Origin: Falsiroseomonas frigidaquae
GTDB lineage: Bacteria > Pseudomonadota > Alphaproteobacteria > Acetobacterales > Acetobacteraceae
Direction of reading: 5' to 3'
Length of the DNA: 64,000 nt
NCBI RefSeq assembly: GCF_012163145.1
Contig: NZ_JAAVTX010000004.1
Span: 248,001 to 312,000, forward strand
The position numbers were made by a program, and so were the translations under genes. A model generated the notes under the pieces. It was given only the letters and a program-made list of their open reading frames with translations. It ran no database searches and was not told where the DNA came from. Shown here piece by piece: positions 1,874 through 55,721 of this stretch. Every line of letters starts with the position of its first letter. Positions within the stretch are counted from its first letter, which is position 1.

Positions 1874-3382
1874 ATGGAAACCCTTTTCGCGAACCTCGCC
1901 CTCGGGTTCAGCGTCGCGTTCAGCTTCGAGAACCTGACCTTCGCGCTGCTGGGCGCCTTCATCGGCACGGCGATCGGCGTGCTGCCGGGCATCGGCCCGG
2001 TGGCCACCATCTCGCTGCTGCTGCCGATCACCTTCGGCATGTCGCCGACCACCGCCATCATCATGCTGGCCGGCATCTATTACGGGTCCCAGTATGGCGG
2101 CTCGACCACGGCCATCCTGCTGAACCTGCCCGGTGAGGTCAGTTCGGTGGTCACCGTGATCGAGGGCTACAAGATGGCCCGCAACGGGCGCGCGGGAGCG
2201 GCGCTCGCCACCGCGGCGCTCGGCAGCTTCTTCGCCGGTTCCGTCGCCACGGTGGTGGTCGCGGCCTCCGGCCCGCTGCTCACCTCCGTCGCGCTGTCCT
2301 TCGGACCGGCCGACTACTTCTCCCTGATGTTCCTTGGCCTGATCATCTCCGCCGTGCTGGCGCAGGGCTCAATCGTCAAGGGCATCGGCATGGTGGTGCT
2401 GGGCGTCGGCCTAGGCCTGGTCGGCACGGACGTGCAGACCGGCCAGCAGCGCTTCACCTTCGGCGTGCCGGAGCTTTCGGATGGCGTCGGCTTCGTGGCG
2501 ATCGCCATGGGCATGTTCGGCATCGCCGAGATCATCCTGAACCTCGAGCGCCCCGAATCGCGCAACGTGATGACCAACAAGGTCGGCAGCCTGTACCTGA
2601 CGCGCGAGGAATTCCGCCGCGCCGTCCCGGCCGTGCTGCGCGGCACCGCGCTCGGCACCGTGCTCGGCATCCTGCCGGGCGGCGGCGCCTCGCTCTCCGC
2701 CTTCGGCTCCTACATGGTGGAGCGCAAGGTCTCGAAGTACCGGCACCTGTTCGGCACCGGCGCGATCGAGGGCGTGGCCGGCCCCGAGGCCGCCAACAAT
2801 GCGGCGGCGCAGTCCAGCTTCATTCCGCTGCTGACGCTGGGCATCCCGGCCAACGCCGTGATGGCGCTGATGGTCGGCGCGCTGATCATTCAGGGCATCC
2901 AGCCGGGCCCGCGCATGGTGGAAGCCCAGCCGGACCTGTTCTGGGGCCTGATCTGCTCCATGTGGGTCGGCAACCTGATGCTGGTCATCATCAACCTGCC
3001 GATGATCGGCATGTGGGTGAAGTTGCTGGAAGTGCCGTATCGCCACCTGTACCCGGCGATCATGATCTTCTGCTCGATCGGCATCTATTCCATCAACAAC
3101 AACGTCTTCGACGTCTACCTGATGGTCCTGTTCGGCATCTTCGGCTACCTCTGCTCCAAGCTGAAGCTGGAAGGCGCCCCGCTGCTGATCGGCTTCGTGC
3201 TTGGCCCGATGATGGAAGAACATCTGCGCCGCGCCATGCTGCTGTCCCGCGGCGACATCATGGTGTTCATCGAGCGTCCGATCTCCGCCTCGATGCTCGC
3301 CATCGCCGCCATCGCCCTGCTGGCGATGCTGCTGCCTGGCCTGCGCTCCGGCAAGGAAAAGGCGATGGCCGAAGGCGGCTGA
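1874..3382 (+). CDS. tctA: Tripartite tricarboxylate transporter permease TctA
   Basis: A 502-residue polytopic membrane protein forming the translocation channel of the tricarboxylate transporter. Family signatures are visible: [20 protein letters not shown] residues [16 protein letters not shown] near the N-terminus, [20 protein letters not shown] near residues 65-85, and a second repeat [20 protein letters not shown] in the middle. The length is usual for TctA (about 500). It completes the tctC-tctB-tctA operon. A 26-bp duplication copies the last codons and the stop just downstream, and a terminator hairpin follows at 3435-3463. Confidence 0.95.
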
Positions 3383-3412
3383 CGCCGCTGGGCGCCGAGG
3401 GCGGCTGACGCC
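3371..3412 (+). repeat. 26-bp-period duplication spanning the tctA stop codon
   Basis: GAAGGCGGCTGACGCC at 3371-3386 recurs as GAGGGCGGCTGACGCC at 3397-3412 with one mismatch. The stop codon of tctA is therefore present twice in tandem. Confidence 0.8.
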
Positions 3413-3434
3413 TTTACCAACGCAGTCGAAGGAA

Positions 3435-3463
3435 GGGGCCGCTCCGCAAGGGGCGGCCCCTTT
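3435..3463 (+). terminator. Rho-independent terminator after tctA
   Basis: Arms 3435-3445 and 3450-3460 pair over 11 bp with one G-U around a GCAA tetraloop, followed by TTT. Placed 52 bp after the tctA stop, it fits the end of the tct operon. The T-run is short, as is common in GC-rich genomes. Confidence 0.7.
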
Positions 3464-3516
3464 CGCTTGCGCGGTCCCGGACGCACCCTGCGGCGAACCC
3501 GCATGGAGTCGCACCG

Positions 3517-4269
3517 ATGGACCTGCAACTGACCGGCAAGGTCGCCCTGGTTACCGGCGCCTCCGCCGGCCTCGGCCGCAGCATCGCCCGCCTGCTGGCC
3601 GAGGAAGGCTGCAAGCTGGCGCTGCTCGCCCGCCGGATGAACCGCCTCGAGGAATTCGCCGCCACCCTGCCCGCCTCCGCCGAACCTCTGCTTCTGGCCG
3701 AGGACGTGACCGACCCCGGCACCGCCGAGCGCACGCGGGACGCCCTGCTGGCCCGATTCGGCCGCTGCGACATCCTGGTCAACAACGCCGGCGGCAGCCG
3801 CCCGCAGGCGGATCTGGGGCCGGAGGAGGTCTGGCAGGAATCGATGGAGATCAACTTCCACGCCGGCCGCCGCATGGCCCACGCCATCATCCCGGCCATG
3901 CAGGCCAATAAATTCGGCCGCATCGTCAACATCACCGGCAGCGACGAGCCGCACATCATCAACGCCGCGAATGCGCCGAACGGCGCCGTCCATATCTGGG
4001 CCAAGGCGCTGTCCCGCCAGCTGGGCCGGGACGGCATCACGGTGAATTCGGTGCCACCCGGCCGTCTGCGTTCGGAACAGATCGACGCCCGAATCCTGCC
4101 GGATGAAGCCGCCCGCCAGGCCTGGGCGGAGAAGGAAGTGCCGGTCGGCTTCATCGGCGAGCCGGACGACCTCGGCGTGCTGGTGTGCTTCCTCTGCTCC
4201 CCGCGCGCCCGCTACATCACCGGGCAGGTGGTGCATGTGGATGGCGGCACGCACCGCTTCAGCCACTGA
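3517..4269 (+). CDS. Short-chain dehydrogenase/reductase (SDR) with atypical active site
   Basis: A 250-residue classical-length SDR, presumably an NAD(P)-dependent oxidoreductase. The nucleotide-binding motif TGASAGLG lies at 13-20, NNAG at 89-92, and the C-terminal substrate lid ends with ITGQVVHVDGG. The catalytic lysine is Lys163 (WAKAL), but the residue four positions before it, normally the Tyr of YxxxK, is His159. A candidate serine is at 142. A subfamily of SDRs with His at this position exists, so this is probably a family trait and not damage. Substrate unknown. It follows the tct operon on the same strand after a terminator, so it may have its own promoter. Confidence 0.85.
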   Translation: MDLQLTGKVALVTGASAGLGRSIARLLAEEGCKLALLARRMNRLEEFAATLPASAEPLLLAEDVTDPGTAERTRDALLARFGRCDILVNNAGGSRPQADLGPEEVWQESMEINFHAGRRMAHAIIPAMQANKFGRIVNITGSDEPHIINAANAPNGAVHIWAKALSRQLGRDGITVNSVPPGRLRSEQIDARILPDEAARQAWAEKEVPVGFIGEPDDLGVLVCFLCSPRARYITGQVVHVDGGTHRFSH

Positions 4270-4338
4270 CCCGCGCAGGCCGCGGGGCGGAGATTGCGCC
4301 AAGCGTGTAGCTTCGCCTCGGTTGCAGGATCACCCGCC

Positions 4339-4830
4339 ATGTCCCACCCGCGCCCCACGCATCTGCGCCGCACCATCGCCCGCGCCAAGCACCGCCGGAG
4401 CAATGCCGCCGCCCCGCCCCGGCTGGCGGACCGGCTGGCCGATGCGGTGGCGGCGCGGGTCGGGTCCTGGCGCTTCATCCTGATCCAGTCCGCCCTGCTG
4501 GCGGCCTGGATCATCGCCAATGCCGTCGTCGGCCCCGGCGGCTGGGACCCCTACCCCTTCATCCTGCTCAACCTGGTCCTGTCCTTCCAGGCCGCCTACA
4601 CCGCGCCGATCATCATGATGAGCCAGAACCGGCAATCCGACCTGGATCGCGAACGCTCCGTCGCCGACTACCAGGTGAACCTGCGGGCAGAGGCCGACAT
4701 CACCCTGCTGCACGAGAAGATCGACCTGCTGCGGGAGAAGCAACTGGCCGAGATCACGGATATGCTGCGCCGCGCCCTGGACCGCATCGAGGTGCTGGAA
4801 GGCCGCCGGCCGGAAGGAGAACGCGGATGA
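4339..4830 (+). CDS. DUF1003 family membrane protein
   Basis: A 163-residue protein with the DUF1003 pattern: a basic N-terminus, RLADRLADAVAARVGSWRFI leading into a first membrane span, a second span in LNLVLSFQAAYTAPIIMMSQNRQ, and a C-terminal helical coiled-coil-like tail (ADYQVNLRAEADITLLHEKID). The ATG at 4339 is chosen because the family begins shortly before this basic stretch; an upstream start at 4294 adds non-conserved residues. Function unknown in this family. Its stop overlaps the start of the next small gene by 4 bp (ATGA). Confidence 0.85.
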   Translation: MSHPRPTHLRRTIARAKHRRSNAAAPPRLADRLADAVAARVGSWRFILIQSALLAAWIIANAVVGPGGWDPYPFILLNLVLSFQAAYTAPIIMMSQNRQSDLDRERSVADYQVNLRAEADITLLHEKIDLLREKQLAEITDMLRRALDRIEVLEGRRPEGERG

Positions 4831-49448: not shown

Positions 49449-51038
49449 ATGCATCGCCGTTCGCTGCTACAGGCGGGCGCGGGTCTCGCCGCGGCCGGCC
49501 TGGCCGGCCCCGCCATCGCGCAGCCCGCCCGCACCGCCACCCTGCGCTTCGTGCCACAGGCCAATCTGACCGCGCTGGACCCGATCTGGACCAGCGCCAT
49601 CGTCACCCAGATGCACGGCTACCATGTGTTCGACACGCTCTACGCCATGGATGCGCGGCTGCGCCCGCAGCCGCAGATGGCCGAGGGGCACGAGGTTTCC
49701 GCCGATCGCCGCGTCTGGCGCATCAAGCTGCGGGAGGGTCTGAAGTTCCACGATGGCTCCCCGGTGCGCGCGGCCGACTGCGCCGCCTCCCTCGCCCGCT
49801 GGTCGAAGCGCGACCCCTTCGGGCAGATCCTGGCGGTCTCCGTCGATGAATGGCGCGCCGCGGATGACCGCACGCTGGAAATCCGCCTGAAGCGCCCCTT
49901 CCCGCTGCTGCTGGAAGCGCTCGCCAAGCCGGACGCCAACGTGCCCTTCATCATGCCGGAGCGCCTGGCGACCACCGATGCCAGCACGCAGATCGCGGAG
50001 GTGATGGGCAGCGGCCCCTACCGCTTCGTGCCGGGCGAATTCGTCTCCGGCAGCCGCGTGGTCTATGCGAAGAACGAGGCCTATGTGCCGCGCCAGGAAG
50101 CCGCCAGCGGCGCGGCCGGCGGCAAGATCGCGCATTTCCCGCGCGTCGAGTGGCACATCCTGCCGGACCCGGCGACGGCGGCCGCGGCGTTGCAGGCCGG
50201 CGAGGTGGATTGGCTGGACCAGCCGCTATCCGACCTGATCCCGACCCTGACGCGCAACCGCAATATCGAGGTCGGTGTCCTGAACGAGGCCGGCATCCTG
50301 TCCATCATGCGGCTGAACCACCTGCAGGCGCCCTTCAACAATGTGAAGGTGCGCCAGGCCGTGGCGCTGGCGGTGAACCAGGAAGACTACATGCGCTCGA
50401 CGCTCGGCGACGACCGCAGCGTCTGGCGCACCTGCCGCAGCCTGTTTCCCTGCGGCACACCCTACGGCGTCGAGGACCTGTCCGAGCTGAACGCCCCGCC
50501 GCGCAACCTGGACCGGGCGCGCGCCGCACTGCAGGCCAGCGGCTACAATGGGGAGAAGGTGGTGATCATCAGCCCCACCGACTTCCCGCTGATCGGCCCG
50601 CATGGCCATGTGACGGCTGATGCGCTGCGCCGCATCGGCTTCAACGTGGAGCTGGTGGAGACCGATTGGGGCACCGTGGTGCAGCGCCGCGTGCGGCAGG
50701 AACCGGTGGAGCGCGGCGGGTGGAGCATCTTCCACACCTATGGCTCCTCGCTGGCCTATCTCAATCCGGCGGTGTCGTCGTTGGTGAAAGGGCCGGGGGC
50801 GAATGGCTGGTTCGGCTGGTATGACAGCCCGAAGGCGCAGGAGCTGGTGCAGAACTGGCTCGACGCGCCGGACGCGGACCGGCAGCAGGCGCTGGCGAAT
50901 GAGATCAACAAGCTGGCGCAGGATGATGTGGCGACGATCCCGCTCGGCCAGTTCAACATCCGCAGCGCCTGGCGGAAGAGCATCACCGGGCATCTGAAGG
51001 GCAGCATGCCCTATCCCTGGGGCGTCCGGCCGGTGTGA
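49449..51038 (+). CDS. ABC transporter substrate-binding protein, family 5, second copy
   Basis: A 529-residue receptor of the dipeptide/nickel type. The signal MHRRSLLQAGAGLAAAGLAG is twin-arginine-like. The mature part carries ALDPIWTSAIVTQMHGYHVFDTLY, then RVWRIKLREGLKFHDGSPVRAADC and, in lobe two, VKVRQAVALAVNQEDYM. GGAGGATAAAGGGAC precedes the ATG. No permease or ATPase genes are adjacent. It is not closely similar to the family 5 receptor at 18.3 kb. Confidence 0.91.
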   Translation: MHRRSLLQAGAGLAAAGLAGPAIAQPARTATLRFVPQANLTALDPIWTSAIVTQMHGYHVFDTLYAMDARLRPQPQMAEGHEVSADRRVWRIKLREGLKFHDGSPVRAADCAASLARWSKRDPFGQILAVSVDEWRAADDRTLEIRLKRPFPLLLEALAKPDANVPFIMPERLATTDASTQIAEVMGSGPYRFVPGEFVSGSRVVYAKNEAYVPRQEAASGAAGGKIAHFPRVEWHILPDPATAAAALQAGEVDWLDQPLSDLIPTLTRNRNIEVGVLNEAGILSIMRLNHLQAPFNNVKVRQAVALAVNQEDYMRSTLGDDRSVWRTCRSLFPCGTPYGVEDLSELNAPPRNLDRARAALQASGYNGEKVVIISPTDFPLIGPHGHVTADALRRIGFNVELVETDWGTVVQRRVRQEPVERGGWSIFHTYGSSLAYLNPAVSSLVKGPGANGWFGWYDSPKAQELVQNWLDAPDADRQQALANEINKLAQDDVATIPLGQFNIRSAWRKSITGHLKGSMPYPWGVRPV

Positions 51039-51047
51039 TTTGCGAAG

Positions 51048-51073
51048 CCCTCCCCCGCGAATGCGGGGGAGGG
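51048..51073. terminator. Perfect 11-bp CCCTCCCCCGC palindrome, terminator or dispersed repeat
   Basis: Arms 51048-51058 and 51063-51073 pair perfectly around GAAT, 10 bp after the receptor stop. No U-tract follows. It resembles the CCCTC/GAGGG element at 16868-16897 and probably is the same kind of dispersed intergenic palindrome. Confidence 0.65.
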
Positions 51074-51213
51074 AGAAAGGCCAGCCTTCTTCACCGCCTC
51101 ATTAACCAGTGCCGAATCTCTCGAGAAGTGTATCACCTTCGTCGTCTGACGACATGGAAGTCGAATAGCGCCATTTACTTTGCACAACCCAACTTAAATA
51201 TTTTGCTTAACGC

Positions 51214-52116
51214 CTATTCTTTCCTGCGAGCGAATGGCTGCCAATCGCCCTTTCCGCTCAATATCGTTGAAATCCAATTCCGAAACGACCGAGCGTCTAA
51301 CAGCGCATCGAAAATATTCATGAATTCGATGATGTGGTCGATCTGGCACACGGCCACCAAGAACGACGAATGCCGTCCCTTATTATATGTTTTGTGTGTT
51401 TCAATTTCTGCGTCAAACCGCATGGTGCAGTACGGTATATCCTGAACCTCAATTTTGTTTTCTCGCGCAATGCAAGATTTGAGAGGACCATCGATAACGA
51501 TGAGCGGCACAAAAAATTTCGCGACCGCATTTCCTTTCTGCGGCCAATGCTCGATGCTTCGCTGCTCTTGCCACTCGGCAATTGCCGCCTTTACGGCAGA
51601 ATACATCGCCTCTCGAAAAAAATTGGCGCTAAACTGATTTTTCGTGTCTCGTTCTGAGCGTGATAAATGCTTGACGACGGACCTGCCGATAAGATCTCCG
51701 AAGACAGACCCTCCTAGAAAAGTATTATGGTATGAGTAATGTTCAGCGTCACCGCCCAAATTCCGCTGAGCGAAAAAAGGGGTTGTTGCGCCAGCAGTGT
51801 CCCAAATGGTTTTCTGCGAGAGGAAGACGATTGCGGGGGCAGTCGAAGTCTTGACATCCGCCACCAGATAAAATTCCGCTTCGACTAGATGCCGACCACG
51901 ACGAAAGTGACACTGAGTGAAGGTGGCGAAATCGATTTCACGTTGCTTTTTTGTCTCGTCGTCGGTATAGAAAGGGCTTGGATGCACATCATAGCCAGCG
52001 CTGAGCAGGCGCTGATGGCATCTAATTTCCCCAGAAAAGCCGACCTCGCCGCTCAGTAGGCGCGCAAGATCCGCGTTGCTCAGAGCACCGTCAGCTTCAC
52101 CGATCTTGACGCTCAT
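51214..52116 (-). CDS. Putative PD-(D/E)xK nuclease-like protein, AT-rich, coupled to gatB
   Basis: A 300-residue protein not belonging to any gat function. A helix with Glu30 ([12 protein letters not shown]), then [17 protein letters not shown] with REID at 59-62, and [10 protein letters not shown] with Asp87-x-Lys89 are in the order and spacing of a PD-(D/E)xK nuclease core; [12 protein letters not shown] at 201-212 occurs in similar uncharacterised proteins. The gene is visibly AT-rich and uses codons (ata, tta, aga) rare in its neighbours, which suggests horizontal transfer. Yet it starts in an ATGA overlap with the gatB stop. Nuclease assignment is by eye and needs profile confirmation. 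Confidence 0.62.
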
Positions 52117-53564
52117 TCGCTTAATTTGGCCTTCACCACCTCGTTCACCAGGGCCGGATTCCCCTTGCCCTGCATCGCCTTCATCGTCTGGCCAACGAAG
52201 AAGCCGAACAGCTTGTCCTTGCCGCTGCGGTATTCCGCGACCTTGTCGGCATTGGCTTCCATCACCTGCGCCACCACCGCCTCGATCGCGCCGGTATCCG
52301 TCACCTGCTTCAGGCCGCGCTCCTCGACGATCTCGCCCGGTGCCTTGCCGGTTTCCAGCATCGCCTCGAACACCTGCTTGGCCAGGCTGCCGGACAGGGT
52401 CTTGTCGCTGATCAGGTCCAGCAGCGCGCCGAGATTCTCCGCCGTCACCGGCGGGTCCGCCACGTCGCGCTTCAGGCGGTTCAGGGCGGCGAAGAAATCG
52501 CCCGTCACCCAGTTCGCGGCCAGCTTGGCGTCGCGGCCCTTTGCCACCGTCTCGAAGAAAACCGCGGTTTCCTTCTCCAGCGTCAGCACATGGGCGTCGT
52601 AGGGCGACAGGCCCATGGCAACATAGCGCGCGCGCCGCACATCCGGCAGTTCCGGCAGTGCCGCCTTCAGCGCCTCCACCCAATCCTGTTCCAGCACCAG
52701 CGGGGGCAGATCGGGCTCGGGGAAGTAGCGGTAGTCATGCGCGTCTTCCTTGGAGCGCATGGACCGCGTGATGCCGCGGGCGGTGTCGAACAGGCGGGTT
52801 TCCTGGAACACCTCCTCGCCGGCTTCCCAGACCTCGATCTGGCGCCGCGCCTCGGCCTCCACCGCCTGCATGACGAAGCGGATGGAGTTGACGTTCTTCA
52901 CCTCGCAGCGCGTGCGGAACCCCTCGCCCGCCTTGCGGACGGAGACGTTGACGTCGGCCCGCATCGAGCCCTCGTCCATGTTGCCGTCGCAGGTGCCGAG
53001 GTAGCGCAGGATCTGCCGGATCTTCGTGAGGTACGCGCCGGCTTCCTCGGGGCTCCGCATGTCCGGCTCGCTGACGATCTCCATCAGCGCGACGCCGGAG
53101 CGGTTGAGATCGATGAAGCTTTTGGTCGCGTGCTGGTCATGCAGCGACTTGCCCGCATCCTGTTCCAGGTGCAGCCGCGTGATGCCGATGGTCTTGGTCG
53201 CGCCGTCGGCCAGCGTGATCTCCACCGCGCCCTCCCCGATGATCGGGTGGGCGAACTGGCTGATCTGATAGCCCTGCGGCAGATCGGCGTAGAAATAGTT
53301 CTTGCGGTCGAAACGCGACCAGAGGTTCACCTGCGCATTCAGCCCGAGCCCGGTCCGCACGGCCTGCGCCACGCATTCCTCGTTGATCACGGGCAGCATG
53401 CCGGGGAAGCCGGCATCGATGAACGACACCTGGCTGTTCGGCGCAGCGCCGAATTCGGTGGCGGCGCCGGAGAAGAGCTTCGCCTGGCTGATGACCTGGG
53501 CGTGGATCTCCAGGCCGATGACGAGTTCCCAGGGGCCTGTGCGGCCCTCGATCGTGTAGCTCAT
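52113..53564 (-). CDS. gatB: Asp-tRNA(Asn)/Glu-tRNA(Gln) amidotransferase subunit B
   Basis: A 483-residue GatB, which binds mischarged tRNA and phosphorylates or activates the side chain for amidation within GatCAB. Family motifs: [46 protein letters not shown] and the GatB/YqeY tail ([23 protein letters not shown]). AAGGGAC precedes the ATG at 53564. It is preceded by a 126-residue unknown gene (ATGA overlap) and followed by the nuclease-like gene. Confidence 0.97.
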
Positions 53565-53941
53565 GCCGGACGTCCCTTCGCCCAATCAAAGGTGGCGATC
53601 TGCTGTTGCCTCAGGAAGGCGCTGTGATCTTCACCCGGCTGCAAACCAAGGCGCCGGGCGCACTCGATGAACCCGGACAGCGCTCCTTGCGCCAGCACCT
53701 GCGACTTGAGGTTCTCACTGTTCACGACGATCGCGCTGATCATACCGTGTGCCTGAGGAAGTGCGGCTGCACAAACCACCTCGAGATGCTTCGCGCACGC
53801 GCTCCGAACCGGAAGGCTCCAGGCGAACCCGTTGGCCGCCGCAATCTCGCCGTAGGTCAGGCAGCGGCGCTGCGCCGCGGCTGTACGGATGGTGGCGATG
53901 GAACGTTGGACATCCCACGCCCCGCCAAGCGGTTCGTTCAC
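53561..53941 (-). CDS. Unknown 126-residue protein inserted between gatA and gatB
   Basis: A 126-residue protein read from a GTG that overlaps the gatA stop (GTGA); its own stop overlaps the gatB start (ATGA). Visible pieces: [34 protein letters not shown], and a C-terminal [15 protein letters not shown]. The arrangement TYGEIA ... ISAIVVN ... FDW resembles a group of small uncharacterised proteins often found near mobile or defence genes; this resemblance is only by eye. The gene is less GC-rich than gatA and gatB. A third position for such a gene inside a gat operon is unusual. Confidence 0.6.
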
Positions 53942-55425
53942 GCCCCCGCCCTCAGCCGCGGCAACGCGGAAAAATCGGCCGCCCGTTCCAGCGTCCGCCC
54001 CACGGCGAACACCGTCTCCTCATCAAACGCCCGCCCGATCACCTGCAGCCCGAGCGGCAGCCCCTGTGCGTCCAGCCCAGCCGGCACCGCCAGCCCCGGC
54101 AGGCCGGCCAGGTTGGCGGTCACGGTGAAGATGTCGTTCAGGTACATCGCCACCGGGTCGTCCTGCTTCTCATCCATCCCGAAGGCGGCAGACGGCGTGG
54201 CCGGCGTTACGATGGCGTCGACATCCGCATAGGCCTGCTCGAAGTCACGGCGGATCAGGGCGCGCACTTTCTGCGCCTTGAGGTAGTAGGCGTCGTAATA
54301 GCCGGCGCTCAGCACATAGGTGCCGATCATGATGCGGCGCCGCACTTCTGGCCCAAAGCCGGCGGCGCGGGTGCGTTCATACAGGTCGCGCAGGTCGGAG
54401 CCCGGCTCCGTCACCCGCGTCCCGAACCGCACGCCGTCATAGCGCGCGAGGTTCGAGGACGCCTCCGCCGGCGCCACGATATAGTAGGTCGGCAGCGCGT
54501 ACTTCGCATGCGGCAGGCTGATCTCGACCGTCTCGGCGCCGGCATCGCGCAGCCATTGCAGGCCCTGTTCCCACAGCGCCACAATTTCGGGCGCCATGCC
54601 GTCCAGCCGGTATTCCTTCGGCACGCCGATCCGCAGGCCCTTCACGCCGCGCTCGCAGGCCTTGGCGAAATCGGGCACCGGCAGGTCGGCGCTGGTGGAA
54701 TCCTTCGGGTCGAAGCCGGCCATCGACTTCAGCAGGATGGCGCAATCCTCCACCGTGCGCGCCACCGGCCCCGCCTGGTCCAGCGAAGACGCGAAGGCGA
54801 CGACCCCGAATCGGGAGCAGCGCCCATAGGTCGGCTTGATGCCCGCAATGCCGCAGAAGGCCGCCGGCTGGCGGATGGAGCCGCCCGTATCGGTGGCCGT
54901 CGCCCCCAGCGCCATCCGCGCCGCAACCGCGGCCGCGGACCCGCCGGAGGACCCGCCGGGGACCAGCCGCGTATCCGGGTCATTCGCCCGGGACCAGGGG
55001 TTCTCCACCGGCCCGGAGGCGCTGGTGGTGTTGGACGAGCCCATGGCGAATTCGTCCAGATTTGCCTTGCCCAGGAACACCGCGCCGTCGTCCAGCAGCT
55101 TCTGGCTGATGGTGCTCTCATAGGGCGGCACGAAGCTGTCGAGGATGCGGCTGCCCGCCGTGGTGCGCGTGCCCGCAGTGCAGAACAGATCCTTGATGGC
55201 GAGCGGAATGCCCTCCAGCGCCCCCACCTGCCCCGCCGCACGGCGCTCGTCGCTGGCCTTCGCCTGCGCCAGCGCCTTTTCCGCGGTCACGGTGATATAG
55301 GCGTTCAGGCGCGGGTTGAGCTTGGCGATGCCGTCCAGATGCGCCTGGGTCAGCTCGACGCTGCTGATGGTGCCCTCGGACAATGCGTCCAGCGCGCCGC
55401 GCAGGGTGAAATCCGTGGGATGCAT
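53938..55425 (-). CDS. gatA: Asp-tRNA(Asn)/Glu-tRNA(Gln) amidotransferase subunit A
   Basis: A 495-residue amidase-signature protein, the glutaminase of GatCAB. The Ser-cisSer-Lys triad region is intact: Lys78 in PLAIKDLF, the [10 protein letters not shown] stretch near 160 and Ser183 in [10 protein letters not shown]. Length is normal. ATG at 55425 (TGATG overlap with the gatC stop) is preferred; a GTG 3 bp upstream is also possible. Its stop overlaps the start of the unknown gene before gatB. Confidence 0.97.
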
Positions 55426-55721
55426 CACTCGACCACCTTCGGAACGCCGAAATATTCGCCCTGGCGATCCGGGGCATTGGCCAGGATGGCATCCGCCTGG
55501 CCGCCATCGGTCACCACATCGGGACGCAGCCGCGCCTTGGCCTGCGCCACAGGGCTGCCGCCGGCCATCGGCTCCACCCCGTCCGTGTCCACTTCCTGCA
55601 ATTGTTCGATCCAGCCCAGGATGCCGTTGATCTCGGCCTGCGCCTGCTGCACCTCGCTATCGTCCAGCCTGATGCGGGCGAGCGAGGCGATGCGCCGGAT
55701 GGTGGCGGTATCGAGGGACAT
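55425..55721 (-). CDS. gatC: Asp-tRNA(Asn)/Glu-tRNA(Gln) amidotransferase subunit C
   Basis: A 98-residue GatC, the wrapping subunit that holds GatA and GatB together. It begins [21 protein letters not shown] and has [12 protein letters not shown] near 40-52 and a C-terminal [19 protein letters not shown]. It is the first gene of the minus-strand gat cluster and is divergent from ruvX. Confidence 0.95.

Follow-up and report, generated by a model that had tools for sequence, protein, structure and literature searches.

The locus studied here raises the question of how a gene with a base composition unlike that of its surroundings came to overlap the end of gatB, in an essential operon, and what its product might do there. 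The window, i.e., the whole stretch of DNA that was analysed, is 64 kb long. It comes from a genome of 6.08 Mb in 19 contigs; among the named GatB records found, those of Rhodovarius and Roseomonas were nearest, at 85%, which makes a host from the Acetobacteraceae probable. The gene, P0001, and the operon in front of it are arranged as follows:

51214-52116, minus strand: P0001, 300 aa plus stop, ATG start, GC 0.50, putative active-site residues E30, D62, D87 and K89
52113-53564, minus strand: gatB, intact host gene
53938-55428, minus strand: gene that we take, from general knowledge, to be gatA (orthology by tblastn)
55425-55721, minus strand: presumably gatC, also named from general knowledge, start approximate

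Composition of P0001 and its junction with gatB

The gatB stop codon TGA (52113-52115) and the P0001 start codon ATG (52114-52116) have an ATGA in common at 52113-52116, which is the 4-bp overlap described in an initial annotation of this DNA. The unusual composition mentioned there was also evident: P0001 had a GC content of 0.499 and a GC3 of 0.542, against 0.658 and 0.903 in gatB and a window mean GC of 0.70. When 1262 stretches of 900 bp were sampled along the window, 15 fell below 0.55 GC and all of them lay at the P0001 locus, the sole stretch below 55% GC in the 64 kb. The REID (D62) and DVKTS (D87, K89) motifs were present in the protein as the annotation had listed them.

A single-gene insertion and a stranded gatB tail

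Alignment with congeneric genomes revealed the following elements around P0001:

roughly 51170-52127, minus strand: inserted AT-rich segment of ~958 bp, comprising the last 15 nt of gatB, P0001 and a 3' tail; boundaries approximate, set by eye in the alignment with G012, G008 and G015
51079-51169, minus strand: remnant of a second gatB 3' end, partial and decayed, with the core of the match at 51089-51169, in line with the native downstream flank
51048-51073, between this remnant and the convergent gene: G+C-rich, terminator-like palindrome, seen by eye and common to congeners
49449-51038, plus strand: convergent ABC-transporter substrate-binding-like gene, product named by inspection

We interpret the segment as an insertion of one gene because in the near relatives G012 and G008 only ~63 and ~55 bp, respectively, separate gatB from the convergent ABC-type gene. 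The same interval measured 69-127 bp in G015, G014, G001, G007 and G010; in the other 8 of the 15 congeners it was at least 572 bp long or ended at a different neighbour, with normal GC among the matches listed. Over the 3' 270 nt that were aligned, gatB itself was up to ~95% identical to congeners at the nucleotide level.

Behind the insert, positions 51169-51089 aligned to nt 1356-1437 of the window's gatB query (which began at 53567, one codon upstream of the gatB start) with 70.7% identity and one 1-bp gap. This remnant was closer to gatB of some congeners than to the gatB next to it: in local alignment it scored 32 with its own gatB and 39 with that of G012, the best match among 154 gatB 3' ends, and the corresponding null maxima were 16 and 14 in 500 dinucleotide shuffles each. 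The blastn E-values were loose for this search, with chance matches reaching E ~4e-4; hence the shuffles and a second control, a self-test of gatB tails at 145 loci, in which the window scored 32 and the runner-up 20. The match also continued in line into the palindrome and the ABC gene common to congeners. Because of the remnant match, the in-line native flank and the outlying self-test score, we read the remnant as the original gatB tail, stranded behind the insert and then decayed, with a complete gatB in front. The last gatB codons (15 nt, AT-rich) probably came with the insert.

Putative fold and superfamily

No match to P0001 was found in Pfam, NCBIfam, PHROGs or PADLOC up to E=1, and Pfam did not call it a member of UPF0102 (PF02021) or of any other family at that threshold. 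A single-sequence AlphaFold2 model had a pLDDT of 34.8 and was unusable. Nevertheless, a pattern E ... RE(I/M/C)D ... (D/E)xK was recognized in the first 110-125 residues of P0001 and of three distant homologues (see below). A four-member N-terminal profile (A4), compared by hhalign with ten UPF0102 proteins gathered with PF02021, gave 82% with a score of 36.0 over 58 aligned columns, while 300 column shuffles scored at most 20.8; profile A3 also gave 82% and the full-length A2 gave 68%. With just two UPF0102 proteins the value was 7.7% (score 21.9, null maximum 17.7 in 150 shuffles), and an unrelated family, that of P0002 (see below), gave 0.13% against two UPF0102 proteins.

The order E ... 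EID ... (E/D)xK of UPF0102/YraN was kept in register over the 58 columns, and E30, D62, D87 and K89 of P0001 fell on the corresponding UPF0102 residues. Asp87 and Lys89, singled out earlier as key residues, were thus well chosen. A PD-(D/E)XK protein is expected to have a motif I acid in a preceding helix, a motif II acid and (D/E)xK in motif III; the four residues that would fill these places in P0001 were also kept in the homologues P0003 and P0005, whereas P0004 carries S in place of D87, a motif III site that calls for D or E. Since the distant homologues share the motif order and the UPF0102 profile matches in register, the REID and DVKTS motifs exceed what chance would give. UPF0102 is an accepted PD-(D/E)XK member family, and the profile similarity to it, with the residues in register, supports the PD-(D/E)XK-like reading of the initial annotation; P0001 is likely a member of this superfamily. 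For UPF0102 itself, a distant relationship with the Hjc resolvase has been predicted (PMC1913061). In an hmmsearch of PDB with A2, the UPF0102 entry 3fov appeared at E=1, ranked below HydG at E=0.0056; the latter, a weak match in another region of the protein, was the only sign of a different fold, and a PDB search with A4 returned neither HydG nor any PD-(D/E)XK match.

The similarity to UPF0102 raises the idea that P0001 processes DNA or RNA in a housekeeping-like role, for instance in repair, in uptake or on tRNA or other RNA, and has no role in defence. UPF0102 is a PD-(D/E)XK-type family of wide distribution, detected in all 10 genomes searched, and the gat operon serves aminoacyl-tRNA synthesis. 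However, the UPF0102 protein of the window genome is a 129-aa frame, whereas P0001 has 300 aa, is AT-rich and occurs sporadically, and detection of its family in 4 of 388 genomes (see below) is unlike a housekeeping enzyme; we consider this explanation unlikely.

Relatives of P0001 and their distribution

With P0001 as query, the window genome was the only one to match among the 16 genomes of the genus, and a search of 385 class genomes with an E cutoff of 0.01 likewise gave that genome alone. When 396 genomes of the order were searched with E allowed to reach 0.1, seven weak matches besides P0001 itself were obtained; a search of genome contigs gave no match. Congeners whose GatB is 96-98% identical were without P0001 itself. 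Among the weak loci from this order search and from a later one with the homologue P0003 as query, L005 and L049 proved to be real relatives; L005 was read for its long unbroken frame, and because its gat location became apparent in doing so, the picking may be slightly biased towards gat. The ORFs at L003, L007 and L056 were read and judged unrelated, and among the remaining weak loci (frames of at least 100 aa) only L049 passed the inclusion threshold of a two-member profile.

The homologue P0003 (304 aa, AT-rich) lies between gatA and gatB in the congener G004; it was found via a weak P0001 match (E 0.05) and aligned to P0001 by BLASTP at E 5e-5. P0004 (310 aa, AT-rich), reached from the P0003 query by a weak match (E 0.036) and at E 3e-4 with the two-member profile, is located 28 bp behind gatB in G333, a genome of another genus, where a GGAG-like site and the 28-bp spacer take the place of the overlap and a glutathione-transferase-like gene follows after 9 bp. 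A three-member profile searched against 388 genomes of the family recovered the three seeds and added a single new member, P0005 in G398, at E 6e-5 (23.8 bits, ~50 positions plus the motifs):

L143 1447-2526, plus strand: P0005, 359 aa, GC 0.40, RECD ... ECK motifs, single-gene insertion

P0005 sits between an MmgE/PrpD-like gene in front and a convergent gene; these neighbours are ~30 bp apart in the congener G215, a near-empty site, and ~480 bp apart in G298. Judged by eye, the left boundaries of the inserts in the window (~52113-52135) and in L143 (~1405-1430) resemble each other (GCCAAATTAAGCG / GCCAATTAAAGCG), which could be chance.

The group therefore amounted to 4 of 388 genomes. Three of the four members belong to gat operons of two genera, where they occupy two different slots, and the N-terminal identity among members is about 24-31%. 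The search covered whole genomes, but the profile seeds were the gat-located members, and distant members may be missed. All four were AT-rich single genes with GC3 of 0.38-0.54, and the measured neighbours had GC3 of ~0.89-0.95, except P0002 with 0.73. The ORFs of 80 wider gatB loci held no relative by regular expression and profile, a weak negative as many of these loci are outside the family; one regular-expression match, L131, was judged unrelated by eye. No plasmid or phage match was obtained by tblastn for P0001, P0003, P0004 or P0005, nor any viral contig match with P0001, P0003 or the N-terminal profile. In the family libraries P0003, P0004 and P0005 gave nothing or weak unrelated names, and no donor with gatB beside a close P0001 relative was found.

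A conserved subunit of the gat system was rejected as the identity of P0001 because the gene is sporadic among relatives; the pattern is one of recurrent acquisition by a sparse, fast-evolving family. The alternative in which all relatives would carry the gene at normal GC was not observed either, as the only congeneric homologue was the distant, AT-rich one of G004. Taken as a group, the four genes hint at an undescribed family of mobile single-gene nucleases.

The gat operon as a landing site

GatB was detected in 369 of the 388 family genomes, and 154 gat loci were examined, i.e., 16 of the genus (window included) and 138 others, representing 151 of the 369 GatB genomes plus three further congeners. 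The distance between gatA and gatB, for the 151 loci with gatA upstream, was below 60 bp in 111, 60-150 bp in 4 and more than 150 bp in 36. The window belongs to the genomes with an occupied junction:

53561-53941, minus strand: P0002, accessory ORF of 126 aa that separates gatA from gatB and overlaps each of them (GTGA, ATGA)
L039 (G007) 3378-4358, and L146, L242 and L244: unrelated accessory genes between gatA and gatB, named by inspection

The P0002 family (window, L261, L178, L151, L182 and others) occupies 27 of the 36 junctions longer than 150 bp. It has a core of ~110 aa with, in most members, the pattern (S/T)Y-x-x-(I/V)A ... S-(A/I)-(I/V)-VV ... GF ... Q-x-x-x-F-x-W, and its GC spans 0.50 to 0.77; the members tried had no Pfam match (one weak unrelated name) and no NCBIfam match, and the window genome holds one full copy. 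The other occupants included a lipoprotein-like gene, a DUF-like gene, an SDR dehydrogenase (these names by inspection) and the G004 nuclease gene, and some gaps above 150 bp had no clear gene. The insert in L028 (G004) lies at the ATGA seam of the congeners and has TGAC at both ends, perhaps a short duplication.

Nuclease-like members were present in 3 of the 154 gat loci, all of them profile seeds, and start/stop overlaps were seen at several occupied gatA-gatB junctions. The initial annotation held that foreign genes rarely slot into an essential operon with perfect coupling; this found no support here, where 36 of 151 operons have more than 150 bp between gatA and gatB and several have overlaps. 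The gat operon is a permissive landing site in the family, which makes the perfect coupling of P0001 less strange and leaves unexplained the recurrence of one nuclease family.

Such permissiveness could mean that P0001 is an accidental passenger, a random foreign ORF in a tolerant spot with no selected function, and its sparse distribution, AT-rich composition and lack of annotated relatives agree with that, as does the gatA-gatB junction hosting unrelated genes too. We doubt it on three counts: homologues sharing about 24-31% identity retain most of the motifs, gat operons have received members of this family on at least three occasions, and the P0001 frame stayed open while the adjoining remnant decayed. 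In simulations of neutral copies at 0.2 substitutions per site, 0.45% of 2000 stayed without a stop. As a neutral frame of this length rarely stays open under remnant-level decay, the retained frame suggests selection on P0001, assuming that the decay of the remnant postdates the insertion.

The coupling to an essential operon and the repeated gat location would fit the addiction-like guard suggested in the initial annotation, taken here as a nuclease restrained by gat expression or by a partner, with loss of the locus being lethal. This fared badly. The insertion consists of a single gene, and neither an antitoxin-like partner nor an adjacent antidote gene came with P0001; congeners with nearly the same GatB live without P0001, and the nuclease gene was undetected in most relatives. 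P0002, the other accessory gene of the operon, occurs in 26 other surveyed gat operons without a nuclease gene, and P0004 follows gatB after a spacer with its own GGAG-like site in place of an overlap. The guard is the least supported of the rival readings, and we regard it as very improbable.

Comparison with known mobile genes

The rival with the greatest reach is homing: P0001 would be a free-standing PD-(D/E)XK homing endonuclease that cleaves conserved DNA within or next to gene-free gat genes and is copied in during repair. It would then be a chromosomal element targeting gatCAB, whose insertion at seams spares the essential genes and which spreads via gene-free alleles. That a single essential operon houses three of the four members found, in two slots and with N-terminal identities of about 24-31%, would fit such an element, as would the single-gene insertions at gene seams; a lone gene between conserved genes was found at the window, G004 and G333 loci. 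In T4-like phages, the free-standing homing genes seg and mob likewise lie between conserved genes with no intron (PMC2988022). P0001 resembles them in being a single nuclease-like gene lodged between conserved genes, but the T4 enzymes are of the GIY-YIG or HNH types and phage-borne, whereas P0001 is PD-(D/E)XK-like and chromosomal.

The duplicated gene end has a parallel too. Mobile ORFs of fungal mitochondria in Allomyces atp6 and in Glomus atp6, atp9, cox2 and nad3 show the order host gene, endonuclease ORF, stranded host 3' end, the stranded end of Glomus atp6 being ~1000 bp downstream (PMC3630166). The order in the window is also gatB, nuclease-like ORF, stranded gatB 3' end. The two cases differ in that the functional fungal end is foreign and the stranded one close to relatives, while in the window the functional gatB end looks native and the stranded one is decayed; moreover, the fungal ORFs are mitochondrial and of the LAGLIDADG or GIY-YIG types.

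Evidence from the flanks also goes against homing. Divergence along gatA and gatB did not climb towards the inserts in G000 and G004, and as it stays even near them, no long foreign flank seems to have arrived with either insert, although a tract from a very close donor would escape notice. No gatB-end copy stood out at the other loci tested. With blastn, neither a copy of gatA nor one of gatB turned up next to the insert in G004, and none that was credible turned up at G333; no copy of the MmgE end was found at the G398 insert (score 9). This fourth member, besides, adjoins a gene unrelated to gat. Altogether, we judge homing to be an improbable account of the locus.

A different route, homology-facilitated illegitimate recombination, is known in its one-sided form (PMC3240628). 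In our view, a single homologous anchor combined with an illegitimate join on the other side could account for the one duplicated gene end; this is a route of insertion, not a gene family.

Proposed origin and role of P0001

Our preferred reading, to which we assign a probability of about 0.5, is that P0001 is a laterally acquired, solitary PD-(D/E)XK nuclease-like gene for which the gat operon is a landing and expression site and not a functional partner. From the earlier interpretation it keeps the PD-(D/E)XK-like motifs, the foreign composition and the gatB overlap, and it drops the rarity of the insertion and the addiction-like guard. P0001 was inserted alone where gatB and the convergent gene had been separated by only a short gap. 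Probably, a donor fragment with gatB followed by the nuclease gene was anchored by homology in the gatB 3' end and closed by an illegitimate second join, which would have left the recipient's own gatB tail behind as a decaying remnant. As the last gene of the gat operon, P0001 is expected to be read from the gat transcript, its translation starting by termination-reinitiation at the ATGA.

The protein most likely acts alone as a metal-dependent DNA nuclease, and plausibly it would target invading DNA in the manner of type IV or other solo restriction enzymes. Type IV and solo restriction nucleases are single-gene, sporadic and laterally moved. P0001 is similarly a single, sporadic and probably laterally acquired gene, and no match to it was found in Pfam or in the PADLOC models of known anti-phage systems (none up to E=10 in the latter). 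No cognate methyltransferase lies beside the nuclease, as the insert holds one long gene. The defence role is a guess made from the superfamily and the sporadic pattern; it is weakly based because no phage, plasmid or viral-contig relatives and no PADLOC match were found.

Significance

Among the matches listed, no earlier account of a nuclease insertion in a gat operon or of gatB homing was found by title, subscription literature being thinly covered. One and the same essential operon has repeatedly received members of a family that the four protein-family libraries searched lack, at seams that spare the operon genes. The preserved gatB tail is a footprint of the route by which a single gene was inserted. 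The gat operon also lends itself to studying how genes enter essential operons, because 36 of 151 hold more than 150 bp between gatA and gatB, 27 of them with one family of uncharacterised small proteins. Were P0001 a homing endonuclease, it would place intronless homing in bacterial chromosomes instead of phages; to our knowledge no such class of selfish element is known in bacterial chromosomes. If P0001 instead restricts DNA on its own, it would show that a housekeeping operon can serve defence genes as an expression site away from defence islands.
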